Source: Oceanimonas aquatica (GTDB taxonomy: Bacteria > Pseudomonadota > Gammaproteobacteria > Enterobacterales > Aeromonadaceae). From it: DNA of 64,000 nt. Below are positions 24,412-61,642 of this stretch, piece after piece. The position numbers were made by a program, and so were the translations under genes. The notes under the pieces are model-generated. The model was given only the letters and a program-made list of their open reading frames with translations, was not told the DNA's origin and did not search any database. Where the stretch lies: assembly GCF_030732065.1 (NCBI RefSeq), contig NZ_JAVBHX010000005.1, forward strand, positions 62,001-126,000. Reading direction: 5' to 3'. The number at the start of each line of letters is the position of its first letter. Positions within the stretch are counted from its first letter, which is position 1.

Positions 24412-26988
24412 TCAGAGCGATTCCATCTGCAGCCAGGTGCTCAGTTGCGGATGGGGTCGGCCGACATGAAACCCTTGCGCATGATCGATGCCGGTGGCCC
24501 TGACCATGTCCAGTACGTCCTGGTTTTCCACGTACTCGGCCACGGTTTTCACCCCCAGTTGCCTGGCCAGTTGCGTAATGCTGCTGACAAAGGCCAAATC
24601 CCGGCTGTCGTGGGTCATGTTGGCAATAAACTCGCCCTCGATTTTCACAAAATCGATGGGCAGGTGTTTCAGGTAATGAAATGACGAGAACCCCGAGCCA
24701 AAGTCGTCGATCGCCAGTAAAAAGCCGGAATCCTTCAGGGCCCGCACAAACTGCTCCAGCAGCGTCATGCTCTTGATGGTGTCGCGCTCGGTGATCTCGA
24801 ACACCACCCGCTCGGCATCAATGCCGTAATCGGCCACCAGGGTGCGCACCCGGGTAAGAAAATCCCCCACCAGCACGGCCCGGGGCGACAGGTTGATAAA
24901 CACCAGGCCGTCAAATCCGGTTTCCCGCACCTGGGCAAAGGCCTTTTCCATCACGATATAGTCCAGCAGGTGCACCTTGCCCATGGACTCGGCAATTTCA
25001 ATAAACTCGCCGGCGTTCATCAGGCTGTCGTCGGCCAGACGAATACGGCTCAGCACCTCCACCGCCATGGGCGCCCCGGCCTCCAGCGGCAGTATGGGCT
25101 GAAACACCGGCAGCAGGGTACGCTGCTCAATAGCCTGCACCACCAGCTGAGTTTTTTCGCTCAGATCGCGAAAGATGTCCGCCACATCCTCGTCACCGGG
25201 CAGGCATACCCGGTTTTTGCCCTGGCTCTTGGCCCGGTACATGAGGTTATCAACAAACAAAAACAGATCCTTGGCGTTACCGGCATGTTCGGGGAAGATG
25301 CCCACACCCACCGAGCAGGTCACTCTTATCTGGCCGCCGTCGTGATCCATGGCAAAACCGTCCACCGCCGCCAATATGCGCTCACTGACGTCCCGGGCGC
25401 GCTCCATGCCGGCCTCGGTCAGCACGATCACGAACTCGTCGCCCCCGTAGCGGGCCAGCACGTCCCCGGTGCCCAGCTGGCCTTTCAGCAGTACCGACAG
25501 CTCGGTCAGCAGGTGATCGCCACAGGCATGGCCGTAACCATCGTTAATGGACTTGAAGTTATCGAGATCGAGCAGCAGCATGGCCACCGAATAGCCATGC
25601 CGGCGACTGCGATCCAGCTCGTAGTCGAGCAGTTCCCACAGCATGCGCTGGTTATACAGGTTGGTGAGCGGATCCCGCGTGGCGTAGTACTCCAGATCCC
25701 GCGTGTACTTGTAGATGGCCTTGACCGAGCCCACCACGTTGAGCAGGGTGGACAGAATGCTCTCCAGCACCAGTACCCGGGTCTTGTCCTTGACGATGTC
25801 GGCCTGCACGCCGATACCGACAATGCCGCCGATCTTGGGGGCTTCCACCAGCAGCGACTTGGTCTGCAGTTCAATGTCCTTTTCATCCAGCTCCAGCACA
25901 TGGTCGTGATCATGGTTGACCACGTTGTGATGCAGGGTGAATTCGCCATGGCTGAAGGGCGTATCGCCGGTACGCAGCCGGGCCAGCACCGCCTGCTCCA
26001 TCATTTCCCTGGTAGCCGGCGCCGGTGGGTACAGCCAGAAGATTTCCAGATCGAACAGCTCGTCGTCCACCTTGAAGATGGAAAACATGGTGTAAATATC
26101 GAGTACCTGATTGATGTCGAGCATCAGTACATTGACGTATTCTCGCCAGTCACGCACTACCTCCGAGGTGATCACGAATTTTTCCAGCAGCCGGATCTCG
26201 AATTCCAGCAGATCCTTGTCTACGGCGATGTTGCGCAGCTTGTCGGCCAGCTGCTCTACCTGACCAAAGATGGAGTTCATCTCACTAAAGCGAAATTGCT
26301 GCCGTTCACTGCCCATTCGCGACAGATCAGACAGGCTTTCCACCTGGGCAATGCTGCGGGACAGGTGCTGCACCGACTGATTGATATTGAGGCTGACCCG
26401 CCGCACCGCCCAGAAGGCAAACAGCAGGGGCAGCGGCGACAGCAGCAACAGGTAATAAAGCAGGTTGCGGCTGGCCATGCCCAGCTGGCCGGACAGATCC
26501 TGCTCCACCGAAATCACTCCAAGGGTGTCGCCCGCCCTGGCATTGGTGTGGCAGGCCAGGCAATCGCTGTGCGCCTTGAGCGGATAGAGATAACGCAGGT
26601 GTTCGCCCTGATCCAGGGCGGTGATCCGCCCGCTGGTGGCGGCGGCCAGCAGCACCTCGTCGGGGGCGCGCTGTTCAATGGGGCCAAAACGCTCGCTTAC
26701 CAGCTCGCCCCGGTACAGGCCGATATGAAAGCCCTGCTCTCGGCTGCCCTGCTCCAGCTGGGTCAGAAAGGTTTCCAGCTGAGTGCGGCTCCAGCCCTGA
26801 CTCATGATGGAATACATGGAATTAAAGGTGGTCTGCGCCACCGAGGCCGCCACCTGACGCGCACTTTGCCGCACACTGCTTTGATAGGCCTGATTGGCCA
26901 CCACCAGCAACAGCAAAAAACCGATGACGGAAAACAGCAGGGTGCGGTTAAGCAGATACCGCCGAATGGTGGTCGGACGTCCGGCCAT
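24412..26988 (-). CDS. Membrane GGDEF-EAL c-di-GMP enzyme with periplasmic heme motif
   Basis: 858 residues. Membrane segments at about 12-32 and 174-195 enclose a periplasmic domain with a c-type heme motif CLACH (143-147). A cytoplasmic region carries a histidine cluster (HH at 353-354, H359, H361, H363), then a GGDEF domain (GGDEF at 515-519) and an EAL domain (EVLSRIR from 644, plus NLSPR, EITER, DDFGSG). The active-site residues of both enzymes look intact, and the RxxD inhibitory site is missing. It could make or degrade c-di-GMP in response to redox state or gas binding. GGAGAG precedes the ATG. Confidence 0.9.
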   Translation of the reverse strand: MAGRPTTIRRYLLNRTLLFSVIGFLLLLVVANQAYQSSVRQSARQVAASVAQTTFNSMYSIMSQGWSRTQLETFLTQLEQGSREQGFHIGLYRGELVSERFGPIEQRAPDEVLLAAATSGRITALDQGEHLRYLYPLKAHSDCLACHTNARAGDTLGVISVEQDLSGQLGMASRNLLYYLLLLSPLPLLFAFWAVRRVSLNINQSVQHLSRSIAQVESLSDLSRMGSERQQFRFSEMNSIFGQVEQLADKLRNIAVDKDLLEFEIRLLEKFVITSEVVRDWREYVNVLMLDINQVLDIYTMFSIFKVDDELFDLEIFWLYPPAPATREMMEQAVLARLRTGDTPFSHGEFTLHHNVVNHDHDHVLELDEKDIELQTKSLLVEAPKIGGIVGIGVQADIVKDKTRVLVLESILSTLLNVVGSVKAIYKYTRDLEYYATRDPLTNLYNQRMLWELLDYELDRSRRHGYSVAMLLLDLDNFKSINDGYGHACGDHLLTELSVLLKGQLGTGDVLARYGGDEFVIVLTEAGMERARDVSERILAAVDGFAMDHDGGQIRVTCSVGVGIFPEHAGNAKDLFLFVDNLMYRAKSQGKNRVCLPGDEDVADIFRDLSEKTQLVVQAIEQRTLLPVFQPILPLEAGAPMAVEVLSRIRLADDSLMNAGEFIEIAESMGKVHLLDYIVMEKAFAQVRETGFDGLVFINLSPRAVLVGDFLTRVRTLVADYGIDAERVVFEITERDTIKSMTLLEQFVRALKDSGFLLAIDDFGSGFSSFHYLKHLPIDFVKIEGEFIANMTHDSRDLAFVSSITQLARQLGVKTVAEYVENQDVLDMVRATGIDHAQGFHVGRPHPQLSTWLQMESL

Positions 26989-47380: not shown

Positions 47381-47765
47381 TACACCACTCCAGCTGGGCT
47401 TCCCATTCCCGTCGCTGCGCATCACGCCGGGCCTCTTGCTCCCGGCGTTGCTCCAGCAGTTCCAGTCCCTTGACCTTGCCCGCCTGTTGCCGGCTGAGCC
47501 GCTGCAGGCGTTCGCTGTCCTGCTGTGCCGCTTTCAGCTGATGCAAGTGGCCGTCGATCACGGTATTGAGCTGTTGGCGAATGTGTCCCTGATTCAGCAG
47601 ACTGATGGCACTGGCGGCCAGTGGTGCACCGGCCAGACCATTTCTGGCCTGCTCCAGGGCCGACTGTTGGCGCTGCAATTGTTCGGCCCGCTTATTCAGT
47701 CTGTCCCGCTGCTGCACCAGGCTGTCCAGTTGCTCCCGTTGCTGACCAATAAGCCGTTTACGCAT
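47352..47765 (-). CDS. fliJ: Flagellar export protein FliJ
   Basis: 137-residue coiled-coil protein that links the FliI ATPase ring to the export gate. It is almost wholly helical and Gln/Arg-rich, as FliJ proteins usually are. It overlaps fliI by 8 bases and is the last gene of the motY-fliJ run. Similarity among FliJ proteins is low, so position is the main evidence. Confidence 0.82.
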   Translation of the reverse strand: MRKRLIGQQREQLDSLVQQRDRLNKRAEQLQRQQSALEQARNGLAGAPLAASAISLLNQGHIRQQLNTVIDGHLHQLKAAQQDSERLQRLSRQQAGKVKGLELLEQRREQEARRDAQRREWEAQLEWCIRPADKPLR

Positions 47766-49101
47766 GCTCTCCTCCGGTCAGTTCCGTCAATTGCTGCAAC
47801 GTCTGCGCCAGGCTCACCGGCTCCAGCTCGCCCTGTTGCAAAAAGGCGGCCAGCGCCGGATAGTGAGCGATGGCGTCATCGGTTTCCTGGCTTTTGCCAC
47901 TTTGAATGCCCCCCAGCGGCAGCAGCTCGCGTATCTGCTGATAGAGGCCGAACCAGCGCTTGCACTGCACCGCCCGAGCCAAATGTTCGGGACTCGCCAC
48001 CTTGCTCATCACCCGGCTGATGGAGGCGCCGACATCAATGGCCGGATAGTGGCCCTGCTCCGCCAGCTGCCGGCTGAGCACCACATGGCCATCGAGGATC
48101 GCCCGGGCCGCATCGGCCACCGGATCCTGCTGATCATCCCCTTCCGCCAGCACGGTATAAAAGGCGGTCAGGCTGCCCTCGGGCTGCTCGCCGTTGCCGG
48201 CGCGCTCCACCAGCTCGGTGAGGGCACTGAAGGCCGAGGGCGGATAGCCCCGGGCCACCGGCGGCTCGCCCACCGCCAGACCGATTTCCCGCCGGGCCTG
48301 CACGTAACGGGTGAGCGAGTCCATCAGCAGCAGTACATCCTTGCCCTGATCGCGAAAATATTCCGCCACCCGGTGACAGCTTTCCGCCGCCCGCACCCGC
48401 AGCAGCGGACTCTGATCGGCGGGGGCGGCGATCACCACCGCCCGGGCCCGGCCCTCTTCACCCAGGCAGTCGTCGATAAACTCCCTGACTTCCCGGCCCC
48501 GCTCGCCAATCAGCCCCACCACCACCACGTCGGCCTGAGTGTAACGGGCCATCATGCCAAGCAGCACACTCTTGCCCACGCCGGGGCCGGCGAACAATCC
48601 CAGGCGCTGGCCCTTGCCCGGTGTCAGCAGGCCGTTGATGGCGCGTACGCCCACGTCCAGGGGCTCGGTCACGCGGCGGCGCAACAGCGGGTTGGGCACC
48701 GGGGTATGCCAGGAGACTGGCTGGCCCCTGGAGGGCGGCCGGCCATCGAGCGGGCGCAGCAGGCCGTCGACGATGCGCCCCAGCAGGGCCGGCGACACCG
48801 ACAGCCTGGCCTCGCTGGCACAGGGGCGAACCCGGGCGCCGGTATACAAGCCCGACGCTGAGGTCAGCGGCAGCAGCAGCGCCTGCTCCCGGTCCAGGGC
48901 CACCACTTCCGCCTCCAGTTCGCCGCCACCCTCGGTGTCGATGCTACAGCGCTGGCCCAGCACCAGCCGGCAGCCGGACACTTCCAGCAGGTTGCCGGTG
49001 ACCCTGAGCAGACGGCCGTAAACCTGGCCGATATCAAGCTCGTCACTGAGGGCGGCCCGGGCCAGCTGCAGCCGGTGCTCAAGCAGGCTCATCGGGGGCA
49101 T
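47758..49101 (-). CDS. fliI: Flagellar export ATPase FliI
   Basis: 447-residue hexameric ATPase of the flagellar type III export system. Walker A is GPGVGKS at about 172-178. The downstream LLLMDSLTRYVQARREIG and GYPPSAFSALTELVERAG sequences are typical. The first ATG lies inside fliH. An ATG 9 bases later is an alternative. It overlaps fliH by 23 bases and fliJ by 8. Confidence 0.96.
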   Translation of the reverse strand: MPPMSLLEHRLQLARAALSDELDIGQVYGRLLRVTGNLLEVSGCRLVLGQRCSIDTEGGGELEAEVVALDREQALLLPLTSASGLYTGARVRPCASEARLSVSPALLGRIVDGLLRPLDGRPPSRGQPVSWHTPVPNPLLRRRVTEPLDVGVRAINGLLTPGKGQRLGLFAGPGVGKSVLLGMMARYTQADVVVVGLIGERGREVREFIDDCLGEEGRARAVVIAAPADQSPLLRVRAAESCHRVAEYFRDQGKDVLLLMDSLTRYVQARREIGLAVGEPPVARGYPPSAFSALTELVERAGNGEQPEGSLTAFYTVLAEGDDQQDPVADAARAILDGHVVLSRQLAEQGHYPAIDVGASISRVMSKVASPEHLARAVQCKRWFGLYQQIRELLPLGGIQSGKSQETDDAIAHYPALAAFLQQGELEPVSLAQTLQQLTELTGGEHA

Positions 49102-49792
49102 CCAGGCTTTGGGCGACCCGAGCCATGCCCTTTTGCAGACGTTCTTCGGTCAGGGCTTCCAGGGTCAGGGTTTCGGTTTCGATGCGGCAGTCCCCCGGCG
49201 CCAATGCCGCATCCTCATGCAGCGCCCAGCCCTGGCACTCGGTAATGCCGATCTCGCTCAGCCGGGCGCGGTCGTCGGGATTAACGAACAATTGCAGTTC
49301 CTGGGTGCGGGCATCAATGCCGGCCAGGGCTTCTTCCACAATGGCCAGCACCTGCTCCGGGTTCAGGGTCAGCTCGGTACGGATCACGCGCCGGGCCACC
49401 TGCTCCACCAGCTCGCACAGTTGCTCCCGCTGCTGGCGCAGGGCCGACATCGACAGCTGCTGCCACTGCTGTTCGGCGCCGCTTTGCCACTGGCGCAGCT
49501 CATCGGCCAGGGTATGCTGCAGCTCGCGCAGCTGGGCCATGCCCTGCTGACGGCCCTGCTCGGTGCCCTGCTCCATGCCCTGAGCCAACCCCAATTTCAG
49601 GCCTTCCTGACGACCGCTTTCAAGACCGGCATTACGGCCTTGCTGAAAGCCTTCTTCGTACCCCTGCTCCAGTCTCTGACTGTAGGCCGGCGGCTCTTCT
49701 TCCTGGGTCGCCTCCTGCACCGACGGCTCGCCGTAGAGGGGCGGAAAGCGGTAGCGGCGATAGGCGCGCGTGCCCTTTGTGTGTCCTGTCAC
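49079..49792 (-). CDS. fliH: Flagellar assembly protein FliH
   Basis: 237-residue negative regulator and membrane-anchor partner of FliI. A GxxxG-rich helix (about 35-75: YEEGFQQGRNAGLESG) precedes a C-terminal domain that binds FliI. It starts with GTG, overlapping the fliG stop by one base (TAGTG). Confidence 0.92.
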   Translation of the reverse strand: MTGHTKGTRAYRRYRFPPLYGEPSVQEATQEEEPPAYSQRLEQGYEEGFQQGRNAGLESGRQEGLKLGLAQGMEQGTEQGRQQGMAQLRELQHTLADELRQWQSGAEQQWQQLSMSALRQQREQLCELVEQVARRVIRTELTLNPEQVLAIVEEALAGIDARTQELQLFVNPDDRARLSEIGITECQGWALHEDAALAPGDCRIETETLTLEALTEERLQKGMARVAQSLDAPDEPA

Positions 49793-50817
49793 TAGTTCAC
49801 CACCTGCTCTTCATAGAGCTGGAATTCCAGCTCGCCCTGCTCCACCAGATCGCGTACCAGGTTCATCACGTCCTGGCGGGCATTTTCTACCCGGCTCACG
49901 GCCACCGCGCCCTGACGCAGCATATCCTGCTCCATCTGCTGGGCCATGCGCCGGGGCATGGCTTCCAGCATCACCCGGCGAACCGGGCTTTCGGCGCCCT
50001 TGAGCGCCAGCCCCAGTACTTCCAGCGGCAGATCCTGCACAATGCGCTGCAGGGTCTCCTGGGTCTGCCGGGCCAGGCTGGTGAAGTCGTACATGTTGCG
50101 CTCGATGTCGCCGGCCTTTTCCGCGTTATGCAGCTTGATGGACTCCATCAGCTCACCGCGGTTGCCCTGATAGCGGTTGACGATGTCCGCCACCTGACGC
50201 ACGCCATCGACCCGTGCGCCGGCATTGTGGGCCACAAACTCCATGCAGCGGGCCAGCGCCGCCTTGAGCTCCACCACCACGAATTCGCTCACTTCATTGA
50301 GGTTGGCCACCCTGAGTAACAGCTCGTCGTGGCTGTCTGCGGGCAGCAGCGAGAGCACGGCGGCGGCGGAGTCGGCGGGCAAAAAGGCCAGGATCACCGC
50401 CTGCATCTGAGGGTGCTCCTGCTGCAGAAAGCGCGCCAGCAGCTCGGGCTGTACCCATTGCAGACGCTGAATTTCCTGACGCACCACGTCGCCGTACATG
50501 GAGTCCAGCAGGCCCCGGGCCAGTTTCTCGCCCAGAGCCAGATCCAGGGTGCGCTCCAGGTATTCCCGGGACGCCGAATTGATGCCGCTCTGCTGACGAT
50601 AGAGGTCAAAGAATTCCTGCAGGGTGCCCCGGGCCGACTCGGCGGAGACACCGGCAAGCCGTGCCATGGCGGTGGTCACCTTGTTAACGTCGTCACGGTC
50701 CAGGCGCTGCAGCACCCGGGCGGCGGCGTTTTCACCCATGCTCAGCAGCAGCACGGCGGCCTTTTCGGTTTCTTTCAGGGTCAGGCCCGCGGCCTGCTCG
50801 GTCACTTGCTCAGTCAT
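49792..50817 (-). CDS. fliG: Flagellar rotor/switch protein FliG
   Basis: 341-residue rotor protein that contacts the stator MotA and the FliF ring. The middle EHPQ motif (QEHPQMQAVILAFLP) and the C-terminal torque helix with charged residues are present. Overlaps fliF by 8 bases. Confidence 0.95.
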   Translation of the reverse strand: MTEQVTEQAAGLTLKETEKAAVLLLSMGENAAARVLQRLDRDDVNKVTTAMARLAGVSAESARGTLQEFFDLYRQQSGINSASREYLERTLDLALGEKLARGLLDSMYGDVVRQEIQRLQWVQPELLARFLQQEHPQMQAVILAFLPADSAAAVLSLLPADSHDELLLRVANLNEVSEFVVVELKAALARCMEFVAHNAGARVDGVRQVADIVNRYQGNRGELMESIKLHNAEKAGDIERNMYDFTSLARQTQETLQRIVQDLPLEVLGLALKGAESPVRRVMLEAMPRRMAQQMEQDMLRQGAVAVSRVENARQDVMNLVRDLVEQGELEFQLYEEQVVN

Positions 50818-52504
50818 GATCTTTAATCCAGTGCTTGATGACTTCCGCCACCCTGTCGGTTTCCCGCTCCGCCAGCAGTTGCAGGTGAGTCACCTGCACC
50901 GTCAGCTCGCTGCCCGGCGGCGGCAGTTGCCACTCGCGCTCATCGGCTTCCCAGGGCAGGGTGGTGTGCGGCCCGGGCCGCTCGCTGTCGGTTTTGCTCG
51001 CCAGCGCCGTGGCGCCCTCACTCTGGCCCGCTGCGGGCAGGGTGGCCTGCAGTTCACGCAGGGCCGCCGCCTTCTGGTTGGTACCCAGGTGGCGCACCAG
51101 CGGGCGAACCCCCAACAGCAGCACCGCCAGCACCATAAAGGCCCCCAGCAGGTAACGGGCATAGGTCTGGGTTTCGGGCTGCTGCCACCAGGCCAGCTGA
51201 TCCGGAAACTCGCTCAGCACCGCCTGGGGCGCAAAGTCAAAGCTCGACAGGGCAAAGCTGTCTCCCCGAACCTGGCTGAAGCCCACGGCGCCCTGCACCA
51301 TTTGCCCCAGCTGAGTGAGCTGGTCCTCGCCCCAGCCCCCTTCCGGCGCCGCCCCCTTGTTGAGCAGCACCGACACGCTCAGCTGATTGATGCGTCCGCT
51401 CTGGTAGCGGGTATGCACCACGGAGCGGCCGCTTTCAAACTGACGCTGGTACTCCCGCTGCTTGCGCTGGCTCTGATTGTTATTGCTCTCGGTCTCTTCA
51501 CCGTCGGCATCGGTTTTCGGCGGCGTGTTGGACAGCGCGCCCGGAATGCCCAGCCCCAGGCTGTTCCGGGTGGTGTTTTCACTGCCGGTTTCCCGCAGCA
51601 GCACCGGCGTCTGATCCAGGCTCTCCCGGGTTTCTTCCACGGCGTTGAAGTCGAGATCGGCGGTGACCTGTACACGAAAGTTGCTGGCCCCCAGCACCGG
51701 ATAGAGCATGTCCCGGGCCCGCTGGGCCAGTTGCTGCTCCAGCTGGCGGGTATATTCCACCTGGCGCAGGCTCATGCCCCGGCTCTGGCCGTTCAGCGAC
51801 AGCTCATCGCTGAGCAGCTGGCCGCTCTGATCGATCACCGACACCTTTTTACGGGTCATGCCCGGCACGCTGCCCGACACCAGATTGATGATACCTTCCA
51901 CCTGGGCCGGATCCGGCCCATGGCCGGGGACCACGTCCAGCATCACCGAAGCGGTGGGTACCTGCTCGGCGCGGCCGATAAACAGGGTGCGCTCGGGCAT
52001 GGCCAGATGAATCCGGGCCTGACGCACCCAGTCCAGCGCCATGATGGTACGCGCCAGCTCCCCTTCCAGGGCGTGGCGGTAACGGCGGGTTTCCATAAAC
52101 TGGCTGGTGCCAAAGCCGGTGTTCAGGGCCAGCTCATCCATACCGGAGGGCAACATCGCCTTGACGCCCTGAGACGCCAGCCGCATGCGCACCGGCCCCA
52201 GCTGCTGCTCTTCCACCAGAACCTGACCACTGTGAGGATCCAGGCGAAAGGGAATTTGATCCTGCTCCAGCACCTCGACGATACGGGACTGATCGTACAG
52301 TTCCTGCTTGCCATAGAGGGGCACGAAGCTGCGCCCGGCCTGCCACAGAAACGCCACCACCACGGCGGCGATGATGAGTGCCAGGCTGCCCAGCAGCAAT
52401 ACCTGGCGATGATGATCCGACAGCCCCTGCCAGCGGGCCCGAGCCTTGCCTACGCCCGCCATCAGCGGCTGGCCGGCGGCCATCAGTGTGCTTGCTTGTG
52501 CCAT
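50810..52504 (-). CDS. fliF: Flagellar MS-ring protein FliF
   Basis: 564-residue inner-membrane ring protein. Two membrane helices (about 40-60 and 445-465) flank ring-building motif domains in the periplasm, including SVMLDVVPGHGPDPAQVEGIINL. The C-terminal tail is expected to bind FliG. It lies 9 bases after fliE. Confidence 0.95.
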   Translation of the reverse strand: MAQASTLMAAGQPLMAGVGKARARWQGLSDHHRQVLLLGSLALIIAAVVVAFLWQAGRSFVPLYGKQELYDQSRIVEVLEQDQIPFRLDPHSGQVLVEEQQLGPVRMRLASQGVKAMLPSGMDELALNTGFGTSQFMETRRYRHALEGELARTIMALDWVRQARIHLAMPERTLFIGRAEQVPTASVMLDVVPGHGPDPAQVEGIINLVSGSVPGMTRKKVSVIDQSGQLLSDELSLNGQSRGMSLRQVEYTRQLEQQLAQRARDMLYPVLGASNFRVQVTADLDFNAVEETRESLDQTPVLLRETGSENTTRNSLGLGIPGALSNTPPKTDADGEETESNNNQSQRKQREYQRQFESGRSVVHTRYQSGRINQLSVSVLLNKGAAPEGGWGEDQLTQLGQMVQGAVGFSQVRGDSFALSSFDFAPQAVLSEFPDQLAWWQQPETQTYARYLLGAFMVLAVLLLGVRPLVRHLGTNQKAAALRELQATLPAAGQSEGATALASKTDSERPGPHTTLPWEADEREWQLPPPGSELTVQVTHLQLLAERETDRVAEVIKHWIKDHD

Positions 52505-52513
52505 AACAGCTCC

Positions 52514-52837
52514 TTACAGCGGCATGCGCATGATGTCGTCAAAGGCAGTCATCATTTTGTTGCGCACCTGCACCAGGGTGGAAAAACTCAGGCCCGCCTT
52601 CTGACTGGCCAGCATGGCCCCCACCAGATCCTCGCTGGCGCCGGTTTCCACCGCCGTCATCAGGCTGGACGCCTGCACCTGCTCGTGGTTGATGGCGCGC
52701 ACCGTGGTTTTCATCAGTTCGCCAAAGGAGCCCTGCTCCACCGCCGGCGTGATGGCAACGCCGCCCTGAGCCTGCTGTTGCAGCTGACTGAGCCGCACCA
52801 GCATGGCCTGCTGAGCGCTTTCGGGTGAAATGGTCAT
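52514..52837 (-). CDS. fliE: Hook-basal body protein FliE
   Basis: 107-residue adaptor between the MS ring and the rod. The family motif GELMKTTVRAINHEQVQASSLM and the C-terminal VRNKMMTAFDDIMRMPL end are clear. It lies 2 bases after lafK and 9 before fliF. Confidence 0.92.
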   Translation of the reverse strand: MTISPESAQQAMLVRLSQLQQQAQGGVAITPAVEQGSFGELMKTTVRAINHEQVQASSLMTAVETGASEDLVGAMLASQKAGLSFSTLVQVRNKMMTAFDDIMRMPL

Positions 52838-52839
52838 GG

Positions 52840-54192
52840 TCAGGCTCCTACGGCACGGTCAATATCAATGCCCTGCTCACGCATGGCGGCCAGCTTGTAG
52901 CGCAGCGCCCGGGTGGTCAGGCCCAGGGCTTCGGCGGTGCGGGAACGGTGGCCGCTGTACTGACGCAGTATCTGCAGCACGTAGTCGAACTCGGCGCGCT
53001 GACGGCTGGCCTGCAGGCCCTCGGCGGGGGTGTCGGCCACCGGCTGACTCAGGGTGATCAGGCTGTTGGCCGAGCGGCTCTGGGCGGACTCGGGCAGCAT
53101 GAGATCAACCACGTCAATAATGGCGCTGCGGGCCAGGATCAGCGCCCGCTGAATGACGTTTTCCAGCTCACGAATGTTGCCCGGCCAGGGGTGGCTCAGC
53201 AGGGCGCGTTCGGCCTCGGCGCTGAAGCGGAATGACTCGCCCTGTCCGTATTTCTGCAGAAAGTGGCGGGCCAGCGGCATGATGTCTTCGGCCCGCTCGC
53301 GCAGCGGTGGCCAGCCCAGGGGCAGCACGTCGAGGCGGTAGAACAGATCTTCGCGGAATTCACCGGCGCTCACCGCCTCGCGCAGATCCCTGTTGCTGGC
53401 CGCCACAATGCGCACATCCAGGCGCACCTTCTGATGGCTGCCCAGGCGTTCCACTTCCTTTTCCTGCAGCACCCGCAACAGCTTGGCCTGCAGCGCCAGG
53501 GGCATTTCGGAGATCTCATCCAGCAGCAGGGTACCGCCGTTGGCCAGCTCGAACTTGCCCGCCTGGGCCTGGCTGGCACCGGTATAGGCGCCCTTGCTGT
53601 AACCGAACAGCACGGCTTCCAGCATGCTTTCGGGAATGGCGGCACAGTTCACCGCCACAAAGGGGCCATCGCTTCGGTCGGACACCTGGTGAATATAACG
53701 GGCCAGACACTCCTTGCCGGTGCCGGACTCGCCGCCGATCAGCACCGCCGCCGGGGTCTGTGCCGCCCGGTAGGCCAGCTGCAGCACCTGCAGGCCGGCC
53801 CGGGAGCGCACCACCATGTCGCCGGTGCTGTTGCGCAATGCCAGGCTCTGGCCCAGCACCCGCAGCAGCTGGCTGGGCTGAAACGGCTTGAGCACATAGT
53901 CACTGGCGCCAGCGCGCAGGGCCTCCCCCGCCAGGGCACTTTCACCCTGCTCCACCATGGCCAGAATGACGGCCTGAGGAAACCGGCTCACCAGGGTCTG
54001 GATCTGCTCGGCAAAGCCGGCCCCAGTGTCGCTGTCTACCAGGATCACGCCCGGCTTGTGCTCACTGCGGGACATCAGGTTCATGGCCTCGACCCGGTAA
54101 CCTTCGGCCAGCAGGGCGCCGTGACACACGTCGGACAGGCCGCCCTTTGAAATCAGCCACAGCAAAGAAGAAGACTGAGTACCCATGTTCAT
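52840..54192 (-). CDS. lafK: Sigma-54-dependent lateral flagellar activator LafK
   Basis: 450-residue activator. The N terminus (about 1-120) is a degenerate receiver-like domain. The AAA+ domain has Walker A GESGTGKE (154-161), the sigma-54 contact motif GAYTGA (201-206, Tyr in place of the usual Phe) and Walker B LLLDEI (222-227). A Fis-type helix-turn-helix ([24 protein letters not shown]) closes the protein. LafK activates early lateral flagellar genes in Vibrio. Here it overlaps motY by 4 bases and sits downstream of the c-di-GMP riboswitch. Confidence 0.94.
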
Positions 54193-55049
54193 GATGCTTG
54201 TTCCGCCTTGATGAAAGAAATAACGACGCGCCGGTTCTGGTAACGGCCAGCCGGAGTGGTGTTGTCGGTCGAGGGATAGGCTTCGCCAAAGGCGCGAATG
54301 GCCATTGGCAGCGAAGGATGAAAACGGCGCAGCTCATCGGCCACCCGCTCCGCCCGTTGCCGGGACAGCTTGAGGTTCAGCGTCTCGTCGCCGCTGTTGT
54401 CGGTGTGGGATTCCAGCAGCAGGGAACCCGGCTTCTGCGTGCCGATGTGGGCGGCCAGGGCCGCCAGCTGCCGGCGCTGCTCCGGGCTCAGCTCCCTGGC
54501 TCCGCGTTGAAAGTGCAGGGTCAGGCGTTCGCCGTTCACGGCGTGGTCCACGCCGTCCTCGCCCCGGCACAGCCGAAAATCGTTGTGGGCCAGCTGAAAA
54601 TGAATGCCCGACATCACCAGGCGGTGGGGATTGCCCGGCTCGGCAATGGCCAGCCAGCGGCCATTTGCCAGGGCGTTCAGGGCCTCGGAGGTGTGCTGGT
54701 CAAAGCGCAGCTGCTGGCGCTGCCAGTGGCTTTGAGTCAGGGGCTGCTCGGGTGCCTGTTGCCAGGGGGCCGGCACAATGGACAGGGTGGCCTGGCCGCC
54801 CTGAATACCCCGGGCGCGCCAGTCCACGCTCAGCACCGGGCGTTCACCACGACCGGCGCTGAAGCGGGCAATGGCCACCTGTCCGATGTGGTGCTCCAGC
54901 ACACAACGGGAAGCGCTGCGTTCGGCGCGCCAGACAGCCTGATCCAGATCGGTCACGTAATCGGCCGATGCTCCGGGACTGCCCAGCAACACACCAAGGC
55001 AGGCCATGCCTTTCAGTCTTGCAAGGTTGTTCATCTTGTTTCTTGTCAT
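54189..55049 (-). CDS. motY: MotY-like OmpA-domain protein (lateral)
   Basis: 286-residue secreted protein. A signal peptide (about 1-29, ending SPGASAD) is followed by an N-terminal MotY domain and a C-terminal OmpA-like peptidoglycan-binding domain (LLESHTDNSGDETLNLKLSRQRA). In Vibrio the MotY T-ring protein anchors stators. The gene order motY-lafK-fliEFGHIJ matches lateral clusters. Its start codon follows a hairpin that could hide the ribosome binding site, and a c-di-GMP riboswitch lies upstream. Confidence 0.88.
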   Translation of the reverse strand: MTRNKMNNLARLKGMACLGVLLGSPGASADYVTDLDQAVWRAERSASRCVLEHHIGQVAIARFSAGRGERPVLSVDWRARGIQGGQATLSIVPAPWQQAPEQPLTQSHWQRQQLRFDQHTSEALNALANGRWLAIAEPGNPHRLVMSGIHFQLAHNDFRLCRGEDGVDHAVNGERLTLHFQRGARELSPEQRRQLAALAAHIGTQKPGSLLLESHTDNSGDETLNLKLSRQRAERVADELRRFHPSLPMAIRAFGEAYPSTDNTTPAGRYQNRRVVISFIKAEQAS

Positions 55050-55055
55050 TTACTT

Positions 55056-55073
55056 CCGGCAGCAGAGTGCCGG
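55056..55073 (-). promoter_or_regulatory. Hairpin over the motY ribosome binding site
   Basis: CCGGCA and TGCCGG (6-bp arms, 6-base loop) end 6 bases before the motY ATG. The 3' arm overlaps the likely Shine-Dalgarno GGAAG, so folding could reduce translation. It may be part of the riboswitch output. Confidence 0.5.
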
Positions 55074-55118
55074 CCCGGCACCAGGCCAGGATGGGAAATA
55101 ACGCTGAGAAAGGTATTA

Positions 55119-55147
55119 CAGGTGGCGAAACGCCGGAAGGTAACCTG
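55119..55147 (-). promoter_or_regulatory. Candidate expression-platform hairpin
   Basis: CAGGT / ACCTG with an inner GGCG-TTT-CGCC hairpin lies right after the riboswitch core and shares bases with its 3' edge. That overlap would allow mutually exclusive folding. No clear T tract follows. Confidence 0.4.
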
Positions 55148-55240
55148 CCTTGGCGGCCCCGCTATCGTAGGAAAATCATTCCCTTAGACCGGAAGCTTTG
55201 CGTCCTGCGTTTTCACGCAGTTTGCCCTTGTCATCAGCAA
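55145..55240 (-). ncRNA. Cyclic di-GMP-I (GEMM) riboswitch upstream of motY-lafK
   Basis: Minus strand. Conserved GEMM-I pieces occur in order: GGGCAAAC (55227-55220), the stem CTGCGT-GAAA-ACGCAG with its GNRA tetraloop, GGACGCAAAGC (55205-55195), TTCCGGTCTAAG, the stem AGGGAA-TGAT-TTTCCT, then AGCGGGG (55163-55157). These match the known class I aptamer closely. It sits in the 318-base gap between flhA and motY. No second aptamer was seen. A weak TTGAAA -35-like element lies near 55289. Whether binding turns expression on or off cannot be read from sequence. Confidence 0.93.
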
Positions 55241-55327
55241 TCGTTTTTCAGTGCGACAGTAGTTGACTAAAAAAACAGGAAAATTTCAACCCCAAACCGG
55301 CATTTTTCTTATGGGTATTGAGTGGCG

Positions 55328-55352
55328 GGAGGAAGGAAAGCCCCCTTCCTCC
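55328..55352 (-). terminator. Hairpin after flhA
   Basis: GGAGGAAGG / CCTTCCTCC (9-bp stem, 7-base loop) lies 16 bases past the flhA stop. There is no T run after it on the minus strand, so it may be a weak terminator or an mRNA-stabilising 3' end between the fliM-flhA operon and the riboswitch leader. Confidence 0.5.
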
Positions 55353-55367
55353 GTAAGGGAATGGCGA

Positions 55368-57446
55368 TCAGCCCAGGGTGCCGACCACGTCGATTTGAAT
55401 GTGCTCGGGCACCTCGTTGTAGGACAGCACCTTGAGCCCCCTGGCAAACACGGCGCCGTAGCGGGCCAGTAATGGCCGCAGCTGAGGCATCACCAGCAGC
55501 ACTGCCGGCACGCCCTGCTCCTGCAGGGTTTCGGCCACTGCCGGCATTTTCTGCTGCAACTGGGAGAGCAGGTTGGGCTCGACCGGAAAGCTGTCGATGC
55601 TGGTTTTGGCGTTCTGTTGCTGGGCCTGCCCCAGGGCGCCGAGCAGGGTCTGCTCCAGGGTATCGGCCAGGGTAAATGCGCTTAATACGTCGCGTTCTCC
55701 CATGATCTGGCGCACAATAACCCGCTTCAGCGCACAGCGCACATCGGCCGCCAGCAGCACCGGATCCTGGGTGATCTCGGCCCCTTCCACCAGGGCGGTG
55801 GCAATGGTGACCACATCAGAGAGGCTAACCTGCTCCTTCAGCAGGTAGCGAAACACTTTCAGCTGCAGCACCGGCGGCACTGCCTCGGCCAGCAGCCCGG
55901 CCAGTTTGGGTGCCTGCTGCTGCAACCGCTCCTGCCAGTGAGTCACATCGTCCAGCACCAGCAACTCCGGCAGGTGCTCACGCATCAGCTTGCTGACATG
56001 GGTGGCCACCACGCTGGCGGAGTCCACCACCGCATAGCCGTAGTTCAGGGCCTTGGCCTTGTTGCCGGGCTCGATCCACACCGCCGGCATGCCATAGGCC
56101 GGCTCCTGGGTCAGCTCGCCGTCCACCTCGCCATAGGTGTCGCCCTTGTTGATGGCGAGCATGCGTTCGCCGTCGGCGCTGCCGCTGGCCATCACCACCC
56201 CGGCCAGCTTGATGCGGTATTCCTGGGGTGACAGTTGCAGGTTGTCGCGCACCCGCACCTCGGGCAGCAGAAAGCCGGCCTGCTCCGACAGGCTCTTGCG
56301 CACCCCGCGAATACGCCCCAGCAGCGGCGCGCCCTGCTCTTCATTGACCAGATTGACCAGCCGGTAGCCCAGCTCCAGAGTCAGCAAATCGACCCGGGGC
56401 AGGTCCTGCCAGCCCAGGCTGGCGGCGCTGTCCTGTTCACGGGCCAGCAGGGTCTCGGCCTGCTCCAGCGGCTCGGCCTGCCTGGCTTCGGCCTGCTGCA
56501 GGCGCCAGGCGGCGTAGCCGAGCACGGCGGCAAACAGCAGAAACACCAGGGTCGGCATGCCGGGCACCAGCCCCAGAATGAGCATGACGGCGGCCCCGGT
56601 CCATACCACGCGAGGGGATGCCAGCAGCTGCTGCCCGACCTGAGTGGACATGTCACTGTCGTCGTTGACCCGGGTGACGATAATGGCGGCGGCGGTGGCC
56701 AGCAGCAGTGAGGGGATCTGCGCCACCAGGCCGTCACCTATGGTGAGCAGGGCAAAACGCTGAAAGGCTTCGGCGGCACTCAGTTCATACTGGAACATGC
56801 CGATCATGAAGCCGCCCAGCAGGTTGATGAACAGGATCAACAGGCCGGCAATGGCGTCGCCGCGCACAAACTTGGAGGCGCCGTCCATGGAGCCGTAGAA
56901 GTCGGCTTCCCGGGCCACCTCCTGACGGCGGTTGCGGGCCTGCTCCTGATCGATGGCGCCAGCGTTGAGATCGGCGTCGATGGCCATCTGCTTGCCCGGC
57001 AGGGCGTCCAGGGTAAAGCGCGCCGCCACTTCCGAGATGCGCTCGCCGCCCTTGGTGATCACCACAAAGTTGATGATCATCAGGATCACGAACACCACCA
57101 TGCCCACCACGTAGTTGCCGCCGATCACCACCTCGCCAAAGGCTTCGATCACCTTGCCCGCGGCCCCCGCCCCCTCATGGCCGCTGAGCAGCACCACCCG
57201 GGTCGAGGCCACGTTGAGCGTGAGCCGCATCAGGGTGGCCACCAGCAGCACGGTGGGAAACACCGAGAAGTCCAGCGGCCGGCGCGCCGATACCGCCACC
57301 AGCAACACCAGAATGGCCAGCACGATATTGAAGGTAAAGAGCGCGTCCAGCAGCCAGGGCGGCAGCGGCAGTATCACCATGGCCAGCACGGCAATCAGCA
57401 GCAGGGGAACGGCCGCATAAGGGCGGCCAAGGCCTTTCCAGTTCAC
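55368..57446 (-). CDS. flhA: Flagellar export gate protein FlhA
   Basis: 692-residue core of the export gate. About eight N-terminal membrane helices (to about residue 310) precede the cytoplasmic nonameric ring domain. The conserved LPGKQMAIDADLNAGAIDQEQA region is present. It starts with GTG, with GAGGTGAAG upstream. It is the last gene of fliMNPQR-flhBA, and a 318-base leader separates it from motY. Confidence 0.96.
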   Translation of the reverse strand: MNWKGLGRPYAAVPLLLIAVLAMVILPLPPWLLDALFTFNIVLAILVLLVAVSARRPLDFSVFPTVLLVATLMRLTLNVASTRVVLLSGHEGAGAAGKVIEAFGEVVIGGNYVVGMVVFVILMIINFVVITKGGERISEVAARFTLDALPGKQMAIDADLNAGAIDQEQARNRRQEVAREADFYGSMDGASKFVRGDAIAGLLILFINLLGGFMIGMFQYELSAAEAFQRFALLTIGDGLVAQIPSLLLATAAAIIVTRVNDDSDMSTQVGQQLLASPRVVWTGAAVMLILGLVPGMPTLVFLLFAAVLGYAAWRLQQAEARQAEPLEQAETLLAREQDSAASLGWQDLPRVDLLTLELGYRLVNLVNEEQGAPLLGRIRGVRKSLSEQAGFLLPEVRVRDNLQLSPQEYRIKLAGVVMASGSADGERMLAINKGDTYGEVDGELTQEPAYGMPAVWIEPGNKAKALNYGYAVVDSASVVATHVSKLMREHLPELLVLDDVTHWQERLQQQAPKLAGLLAEAVPPVLQLKVFRYLLKEQVSLSDVVTIATALVEGAEITQDPVLLAADVRCALKRVIVRQIMGERDVLSAFTLADTLEQTLLGALGQAQQQNAKTSIDSFPVEPNLLSQLQQKMPAVAETLQEQGVPAVLLVMPQLRPLLARYGAVFARGLKVLSYNEVPEHIQIDVVGTLG

Positions 57447-60760: not shown

Positions 60761-61642
60761 TCAGTCTATGAATCCGTGGCTGGCAAACACCAGCATGCCG
60801 TCGCGCTCGGCCACCCGCCCTTTCAGCACCGGCTGTTCGCCGGCCCGGGCCACCACCTCCTGCAACAGGTTGATGGGCAGCACGTCGCCTTCATTGAGTT
60901 CGGCGATTTGCCCCAAAGGCAGCTCAAAGGTCGCCAGGGGCACCGACAAGTGCGTACTCAACCGGGGCAGGCTGGCGTTCAGGGCCTCGGTGAGCCCGCC
61001 ATCGGCGGGCACCGGCAAGGCTTCCGGCTCGGCCGACCGCAGCGCGGGCAGTGTCAGGGTCCAGCCCAGATGCTGACCGGCGAAGTGAATGTCAAAGGCC
61101 AGCTGCGTTTCCACCTCAAACTCCGCTGCGCCGGCCAGCATGCGGGCGCATCCCGGCACGGCTTCTGGCAATATCCGTGCCACCAGGTCGTCGGTGATCA
61201 TGCCAAGCAGACTGGCGCCCAGCCGGCGCTCGGTTTCGGACACCGCACGCAGCGGGCCAATGCTGTCCAATGGCTGGCCACCAAAGGTCATTTCCGCCAG
61301 CCGGTATAGGGTGGCGTGCTCAATGTGCAGGGCGGCGGACGCTTGCAGCCGGCCATCCCATTGATGTTCCATCAAAAAATGAAGCTGCTCCGCCGGTGCC
61401 GGCGCGCCTTCCCGCACACGGCAGTCCAGACTCAGCTCGCTGCGGTAAAGCATGGCCTCGAGCCGGCGACGCCAGCCGTCCCGGCATGCTTCCAGGGCCG
61501 GAAGCAGGCGCTCACTCTGCCGCTCACCGGCTTGCTCCTGTTGAAAAAAGTCATAAAGGGGAAACCCGGCTTCCCCTGCCGGGTGGACTTTTCCGCTGGC
61601 CGGGGCGAACAGGGTGTTCGCGGCCCGCTGCTTGTTGCTCAC
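60761..61642 (-). CDS. fliM: Flagellar switch protein FliM
   Basis: 293-residue C-ring protein with a middle CheC-like domain and a C-terminal SpoA domain (about 215-285, SVPLATFELPLGQIAELNEGDVLPIN). The N terminus (MSNKQRAANTLF) shows no LSQxEIDALL-type CheY-binding motif, so this switch may not respond to CheY, which would fit a lateral motor. It starts with GTG; GGAGG lies about 8 bases upstream. It heads the fliMNPQR-flhBA operon behind a candidate sigma-54 promoter. Confidence 0.9.
   Translation of the reverse strand: MSNKQRAANTLFAPASGKVHPAGEAGFPLYDFFQQEQAGERQSERLLPALEACRDGWRRRLEAMLYRSELSLDCRVREGAPAPAEQLHFLMEHQWDGRLQASAALHIEHATLYRLAEMTFGGQPLDSIGPLRAVSETERRLGASLLGMITDDLVARILPEAVPGCARMLAGAAEFEVETQLAFDIHFAGQHLGWTLTLPALRSAEPEALPVPADGGLTEALNASLPRLSTHLSVPLATFELPLGQIAELNEGDVLPINLLQEVVARAGEQPVLKGRVAERDGMLVFASHGFID

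Follow-up and report, generated by a model that had tools for sequence, protein, structure and literature searches.

A c-di-GMP-I aptamer precedes the lateral flagellar genes motY and lafK in Oceanimonas aquatica and accompanies lafK in many relatives

Results

A full-length aptamer between flhA and motY

The window, by which we mean the whole 64,000-nucleotide stretch of Oceanimonas aquatica DNA analyzed here, carries on its minus strand genes in the order fliM-like, fliN, fliP, fliR, flhB and flhA, then an aptamer, then motY, lafK, fliE, fliF, fliG, fliH and fliI; beyond fliI lie hook, rod and flagellin genes, a gene for a flagellar-type sigma factor and motAB. Because of this gene order together with the further genes, we take the window to hold a lateral flagella cluster in which the aptamer opens the motY-lafK run. 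The main features are:

60761-61642, minus strand: fliM-like gene
55368-57446, minus strand: flhA, end of the upstream gene run (TIGR01398 FlhA above cut-off)
55149-55236, minus strand: c-di-GMP-I (GEMM-I) aptamer (RF01051, 80.8 bits; compensatory changes among 26 distinct relatives)
54189-55049, minus strand: motY, lateral (Pfam MotY_N 6.1e-14, OmpA 1.9e-11)
52840-54192, minus strand: lafK, sigma-54-dependent activator (Pfam Sigma54_activat 2.1e-69, HTH_8; lateral LafK clade)
52514-52837, minus strand: fliE (Pfam FliE 1.2e-23)
50810-52504, minus strand: fliF (Pfam YscJ_FliF 3.1e-54)
49792-50817, minus strand: fliG (Pfam FliG_N, FliG_M, FliG_C)
49079-49792, minus strand: fliH (Pfam FliH 1.3e-22)
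47758-49101, minus strand: fliI (Pfam ATP-synt_ab, T3SS_ATPase_C; best NCBIfam match FliI_clade1, somewhat below cut-off)

The neighbors flhA, motY and lafK are thus as an earlier, sequence-only reading of this DNA had given them, all on the minus strand. In the window lafK overlaps motY by 4 bases, and motY may start at the inner ATG at 55034, which is common to most relatives, instead of at 55049. Directly after flhA and before the leader, a hairpin with a pyrimidine-rich tail was found at 55341-55361 on the minus strand (one match, with 0.7 expected by chance). The GGDEF-EAL protein previously noted in the window is also there (24412-26988, minus strand); it is encoded ~1.5 kb past the lateral motAB genes, its GGDEF motif is intact and EVL replaces EAL. 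In V. parahaemolyticus, a degenerate EAL protein, LafV, is described at the end of the lateral operon (PMC9303241, available portion).

The sequence-only reading had proposed a near-canonical GEMM-I aptamer on the minus strand of the gap between flhA and motY-lafK and had named a covariance-model search with the Rfam GEMM family as the way to check it. In a cmscan search of Rfam, RF01051 (c-di-GMP-I, GEMM-I) matched positions 55236-55149 on the minus strand with 80.8 bits (gathering score, 35 bits) and E 2.5e-14, which bears out the proposal; the match is full length (model positions 1-87 of 87) with one non-standard pair marked. The conserved blocks singled out earlier are all present, namely GGCAAAC, the GAAA-capped stem, GGACGCAAAGC, CCGGUCUAA, AUAGCGGGG and GCC. 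No further Rfam match at or above the gathering score was found elsewhere in the 64 kb window, and across the 3.45 Mb genome no second RF01051 match was found. The type example of RF01051 is Vc2. Like members of this family, the window element has a full-length aptamer, the core bases, a G at the position of Vc2 G20 and, in its stem, the GAAA loop; unlike them, its target would be the lateral flagellar activator operon, and its expression platform was not recognized.

We aligned 29 of 42 aptamers from relatives for the helix test, 26 of them distinct; the 12 of other lengths and L120, although of fitting length, were left out. Across the 29, the core columns are invariant and model position 11 is G, as in the window (29/29); read by eye, G occupies this position in 41 of the 42 leaders. 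Model position 11 is equivalent to Vc2 G20, a selectivity factor among cyclic dinucleotides (PMC9262584, in the part available). Over the 22 Rfam pairs, 98.3% of cells are standard (0/500 shuffles as high), 10 pairs have changes on both sides (0/500 shuffles as many) and the covariation score is 0.354 compared with 0.154 after shuffling (0/500 as high), all shuffle and permutation counts in this study being less strict than probabilities because the sequences are related. Model pair 40:81 departs from the standard pairs in the window row and in five more of the 26 distinct rows. The conservation of the aptamer is strong enough for us to treat it as functional.

P1 and the leader between aptamer and motY

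Comparison of the window with the leaders of its genus, eight in all, and with the wider set of 42 leaders pointed to the following elements around the aptamer:

55251-55275, minus strand: upstream block (T-run, AGTCAA..CGCAC), perhaps a promoter or an operator, nearly invariant in 8/8 genus leaders
55237-55240, minus strand: P1 5' strand (UUGC), outside the Rfam model (invariant in 8/8 genus leaders; swap test)
55146-55148, minus strand: P1 3' strand (GCA), also the start of the downstream hairpin (swap test; sequence)
55118-55148, minus strand: possible alternative hairpin, GCAGG...CCUGU, which could not form together with P1 (GCAGG and CCUGUA each the same in 8/8 genus leaders)
55103-55113, minus strand: invariant CCUUUCUCAGC element, which could pair with 5' GCUGA..AAGG (8/8 genus leaders)
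55074-55090, minus strand: leader hairpin HA (93.6% of cells paired, one compensatory pair, 8 leaders)
55056-55073, minus strand: leader hairpin HB, close to where motY starts (97.9% of cells paired, one compensatory pair, 8 leaders)

P1 is predicted to join the ends of the aptamer, and the swap test and compensatory changes support this pairing. Specifically, among 42 leaders the P1 strands pair at -7.03 kcal/mol with their own partner versus -4.89 kcal/mol with those of other clades (0/2000 permutations), and with 19 representatives of these leaders the count was 1/2000 permutations. In the window, P1 is short and weakly paired (-4.4 kcal/mol), and in one relative, G071, it is nearly absent (-0.8).

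Before and within the aptamer, UUGCUGAUGACAAGG is invariant in all eight genus leaders, and so are GCAGG, CCUGUA and CCUUUCUCAGC after it (8/8 each). Because GCAGG overlaps the P1 3' strand, an exchange between P1 and the alternative hairpin would be natural. Cross-family swap tests gave this hairpin no support (138/2000 permutations, and 229 to 1276/5000 in a second test with 21 representatives of the 42 leaders), and in the modeled apo ensemble of the whole leader its probability is at most 0.14 in 8/8 genus leaders. A long-range pairing of GCUGA..AAGG with CCUU..UCAGC appeared in some single folds but was rejected, having a probability of at most 0.08 in 7/8 ensembles and a swap-test count of 748/2000. 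For HA and HB jointly, 95.8% of cells are paired (0/500 shuffles as high) and two pairs are changed on both sides, which 14/500 shuffles reach.

We considered an intrinsic terminator between aptamer and motY and discarded it for the window, in which the only match within 54900-55500 precedes the aptamer. Scanning more widely, we found none in 7/8 genus leaders and, in the eighth (G055), a weak match equaled in strength by 4/40 mononucleotide shuffles. Terminator-like hairpins with U-tracts do occur in several Aeromonas leaders and in the f7 leader of G299, matched by few or none of 40 shuffles. Over 12 modeled leaders, terminator formation with versus without a free P1 3' strand showed no common direction; the one clear difference, in the leader G063b, was towards ON (0.84 apo, 0.09 holo). 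Modeled access to the motY start showed no consistent shift between apo and holo states in 8 leaders, and this, together with the fact that the ATG at 55049 is not common to all relatives, weakens the idea that a Shine-Dalgarno sequence is sequestered at that ATG. The upstream block at 55251-55275 occupies bases 15-39 ahead of the aptamer. It fits no consensus sigma-70 promoter, nor did a search of 54900-55500 reveal one.

The aptamer accompanies lafK across relatives

Lateral-type LafK loci have an aptamer immediately before them on the same strand in 40 of 57 cases, a figure that becomes 40 of 56 if G038 is set aside. The search of the window's family for LafK took in 75 genomes, 32 with a match at E <= 1e-118, and 28 of these 32 loci have the aptamer; by genus, it is present in 8/8 loci of the window's genus (g1), 19/20 of g2, 1/1 of g4, 0/2 of g5 and 0/1 of g3. 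From an order sample of 394 genomes, in which adjacency was examined for matches down to E 1.4e-121 plus G102, 25 further loci outside the family were examined and 12 have the aptamer: 4/4 in family f16, 3/3 in f7, 4/4 in f2, 1/9 in f6 and 0/5 in f22. One of the four f2 loci is split between contigs, and three of the four f2 aptamers score best with the sister family RF03167. Within the window's family, the G042 locus is also divided: one contig ends with the aptamer and the beginning of motY, and the remaining motY and lafK are at the edge of another. We take g2 as Aeromonas because the polar locus of its member G024 is 88.6% identical to an A. caviae chromosome, and f22 is Vibrio-like (a 5 kb query matched V. 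campbellii at 75% over 40% of its length). At 16 of the 57 loci no Rfam-level aptamer lies nearby, and at one more (G071) it is unlinked: there the aptamer (L128, 777-871, minus strand) is close to a contig end, on the far side of a gene for another sigma-54 activator, and lafK is on another contig.

In tblastn searches with the window's MotY (E <= 1e-4), MotY lies between aptamer and lafK in the window's genus, f16, f2 and the one aptamer-bearing f6 locus (G298), and also occurs at aptamer-free f22 and f6 loci; none was found at the lafK loci of g2, g4 and g5, nor in f7, although an ORF of 284-310 residues sits there. The relatives' ORFs were picked automatically, and the first start codons given are not all true ones. 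In Aeromonas, whose lafK loci gave no MotY match, the aptamer is immediately upstream of lafK, and we therefore consider that it follows lafK. Its attachment to lafK across relatives, which formed no part of the sequence-only reading, is new to this analysis, and the comparison suggests that a switch before the lateral regulator is old and conserved and not a one-off.

A MotY scan of the genome contigs gave 10 loci with OmpA-domain matches of 26-39% identity and was set aside, and an in-frame stop in f2 LafK proved to be outside the aligned protein. Among plasmids, a LafK query matched 827 records, none with at least 60% identity among the 20 matches listed, and window positions 54000-56000 gave 21 matching records, all of them covering less than 80% of the query and the 8 listed covering at most 11%.

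Absence of the aptamer looks derived

In a maximum-likelihood tree of LafK with 63 rows, the 56 lateral rows, including that of the window, group together as a clade that excludes the 6 polar rows and G038. Thirteen aptamer-free rows, the Vibrio-like f22 rows and eight from f6, form a single clade within LafK (96/93), a join that may be false, as the tree program warns of long branches meeting. With the ambiguous G071 counted among the aptamer rows, the aptamer label needs three changes on the tree, and 0/500 shuffles are as low.

We also searched the 16 aptamer-free loci for remnants using a custom model with filters off. G028, the sole aptamer-free Aeromonas locus, has a remnant in the right place (L097, 1231-1321; 42.7 bits, E 1.7e-8); its helices contain broken pairs, its GAAA loop is changed, and the genome lacks any Rfam-level c-di-GMP-I match. 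G074 has a marginal remnant ~1 kb before lafK (14.9 bits, E 0.11), and nothing was found at E < 0.2 at the other 14 loci. Because of the G028 remnant and the one-clade absences, we read the pattern as loss from an aptamer-bearing ancestor, with the deep branching left unsettled by the tree; comparative evidence of this kind points to the absence being derived. A wider proposal, for which we see the case as evenly balanced, is that the c-di-GMP-I riboswitch was the ancestral switch of lateral flagella in the order: it would be on most of the main lateral LafK branches sampled, kept without motY and lost once in the line leading to the Vibrio-like and most f6 loci, so that the best-studied systems would be rewired exceptions.

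Discussion

We propose, with moderate confidence, that the element is a riboswitch leader of motY-lafK-fliEFGHI that acts by P1/downstream exchange as an OFF switch, and that this accounts for the observations as a whole. Specifically, the c-di-GMP-I riboswitch would form the 5' leader of a single motY-lafK-fliEFGHI transcript. Binding of c-di-GMP would stabilize the aptamer together with P1, and in the ligand-free state the P1 3' strand would become available for downstream pairing. This exchange would set the amount of LafK, which would drive the sigma-54-dependent lateral genes. Swarming generally accompanies low c-di-GMP. Based on this physiology and by analogy with Cd1 of C. difficile, the element is most likely an OFF switch, such that high c-di-GMP, as in the sessile state, would lower LafK. 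Because no intrinsic terminator was seen, the read-out in the genus is perhaps translational or Rho-dependent. Counting the leader-ensemble modeling and the G063b difference lowered our confidence in this reading slightly. The step from control of LafK to control of every sigma-54-dependent lateral gene would follow from published work on LafK (PMC9303241, PMC5013049; both in part); in A. hydrophila, LafK is described as master regulator of the lateral system (PMC5013049, same portion).

The same riboswitch could also have the opposite sign, a surface-contact rise in c-di-GMP switching motY-lafK on and so starting lateral flagella. We consider this possible but rather unlikely. Swarming being a low-c-di-GMP state argues against it, as do the seven functional class I switches of C. 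difficile, the flagellar one included, which are all OFF in the available part of PMC6366702; yet the sequence itself does not fix the sign because leader modeling gave no common direction and the modeled difference in G063b favors ON, and highly similar aptamers are described as working as either ON or OFF switches (PMC9262584, in part). An aptamer that binds its ligand without controlling lafK, being part of a short transcript or acting only on motY while lafK is served by an internal promoter, would accord with the lack of a consensus sigma-70 promoter in the region searched; in view of the 4-base motY/lafK overlap in the window and of the Aeromonas loci in which the aptamer directly precedes lafK, we regard it as very unlikely. 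Most unlikely, in our judgment, is an aptamer that has decayed or reads another cyclic dinucleotide: the non-standard pair 40:81 and the A seen by eye at the selectivity position in G298 could be read in this way, but the 80.8-bit match, the invariant core columns and the retained G11 speak against it, and the truly decayed copy in G028 looks quite different.

Returning to the proposed OFF-switch leader, it can be compared with known systems. Cd1 (Cdi-1-3), before the flgB flagellar operon of C. difficile, is likewise a class I leader riboswitch, and its operon carries a regulator gene, sigD (PMC6366702, in part); unlike the window leader, in which no terminator was found, Cd1 has been proven to switch its operon OFF by terminating transcription, and the window aptamer precedes a sigma-54 activator in a Gram-negative bacterium. 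The lateral system of PMC9303241 (as far as available) resembles the window in having lateral genes under LafK with c-di-GMP signaling genes tied in, and differs in that the aptamer is absent from 5/5 Vibrio-like lateral loci examined here. The PilZ proteins FilZ (PMC10304486) and MotL (PMC8203827), in the accessible portions of these papers, are also c-di-GMP effectors in lateral flagellar clusters; they are proteins acting on chemotaxis or the motor, whereas the window element is a leader RNA.

In the search listings and passages covered, we found no published report of a riboswitch at lafK, although an earlier mention, for instance in the founding GEMM papers (Sudarsan 2008, Weinberg 2007), is possible; the locus thus combines a known riboswitch class with a target for which no report was found in print. 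In the available part of PMC6366702, c-di-GMP riboswitches of A. hydrophila are named before fimbrial and chitinase genes and not lafK; PMC4406679 mentions lafK, and its single passage on riboswitches, a table, gives c-di-GMP-II and purine riboswitches that lie elsewhere; and for A. salmonicida 11 riboswitches are given without being itemized in the accessible text of PMC2556355. In Aeromonas and a number of other lineages, our proposal, if true, would give a direct and testable RNA link from c-di-GMP, the main motile/sessile signal, to the master regulator of swarming flagella, and at that step lateral flagella could respond to c-di-GMP with no protein receptor. The riboswitch would then have escaped notice in Vibrio parahaemolyticus because Vibrio-like loci lack the aptamer.

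Three further observations concern relatives of the window. In three f16 leaders a second conserved element, CUACUC...GAGUAGGCACGA...UGUACG.UGCA.CUGG, lies between aptamer and motY (L098, ~1230-1290; L099, ~1100-1160; L100, ~1160-1220); it matches no Rfam family at E up to 1, and its exact pattern occurs once in each of 2/5 genomes of the genus, a third having a variant. The f6 aptamer of G298 before motY-lafK (L102, 3243-3332, minus strand) has, by eye, an A at model position 11 (Vc2 G20), possibly reflecting a change in ligand preference. Finally, G063 of g4 has tandem c-di-GMP-I aptamers directly before lafK (L127, 1164-1255 and 1393-1485), possibly a cooperative switch, and a third aptamer ~7 kb off (L138, 1484-1571).
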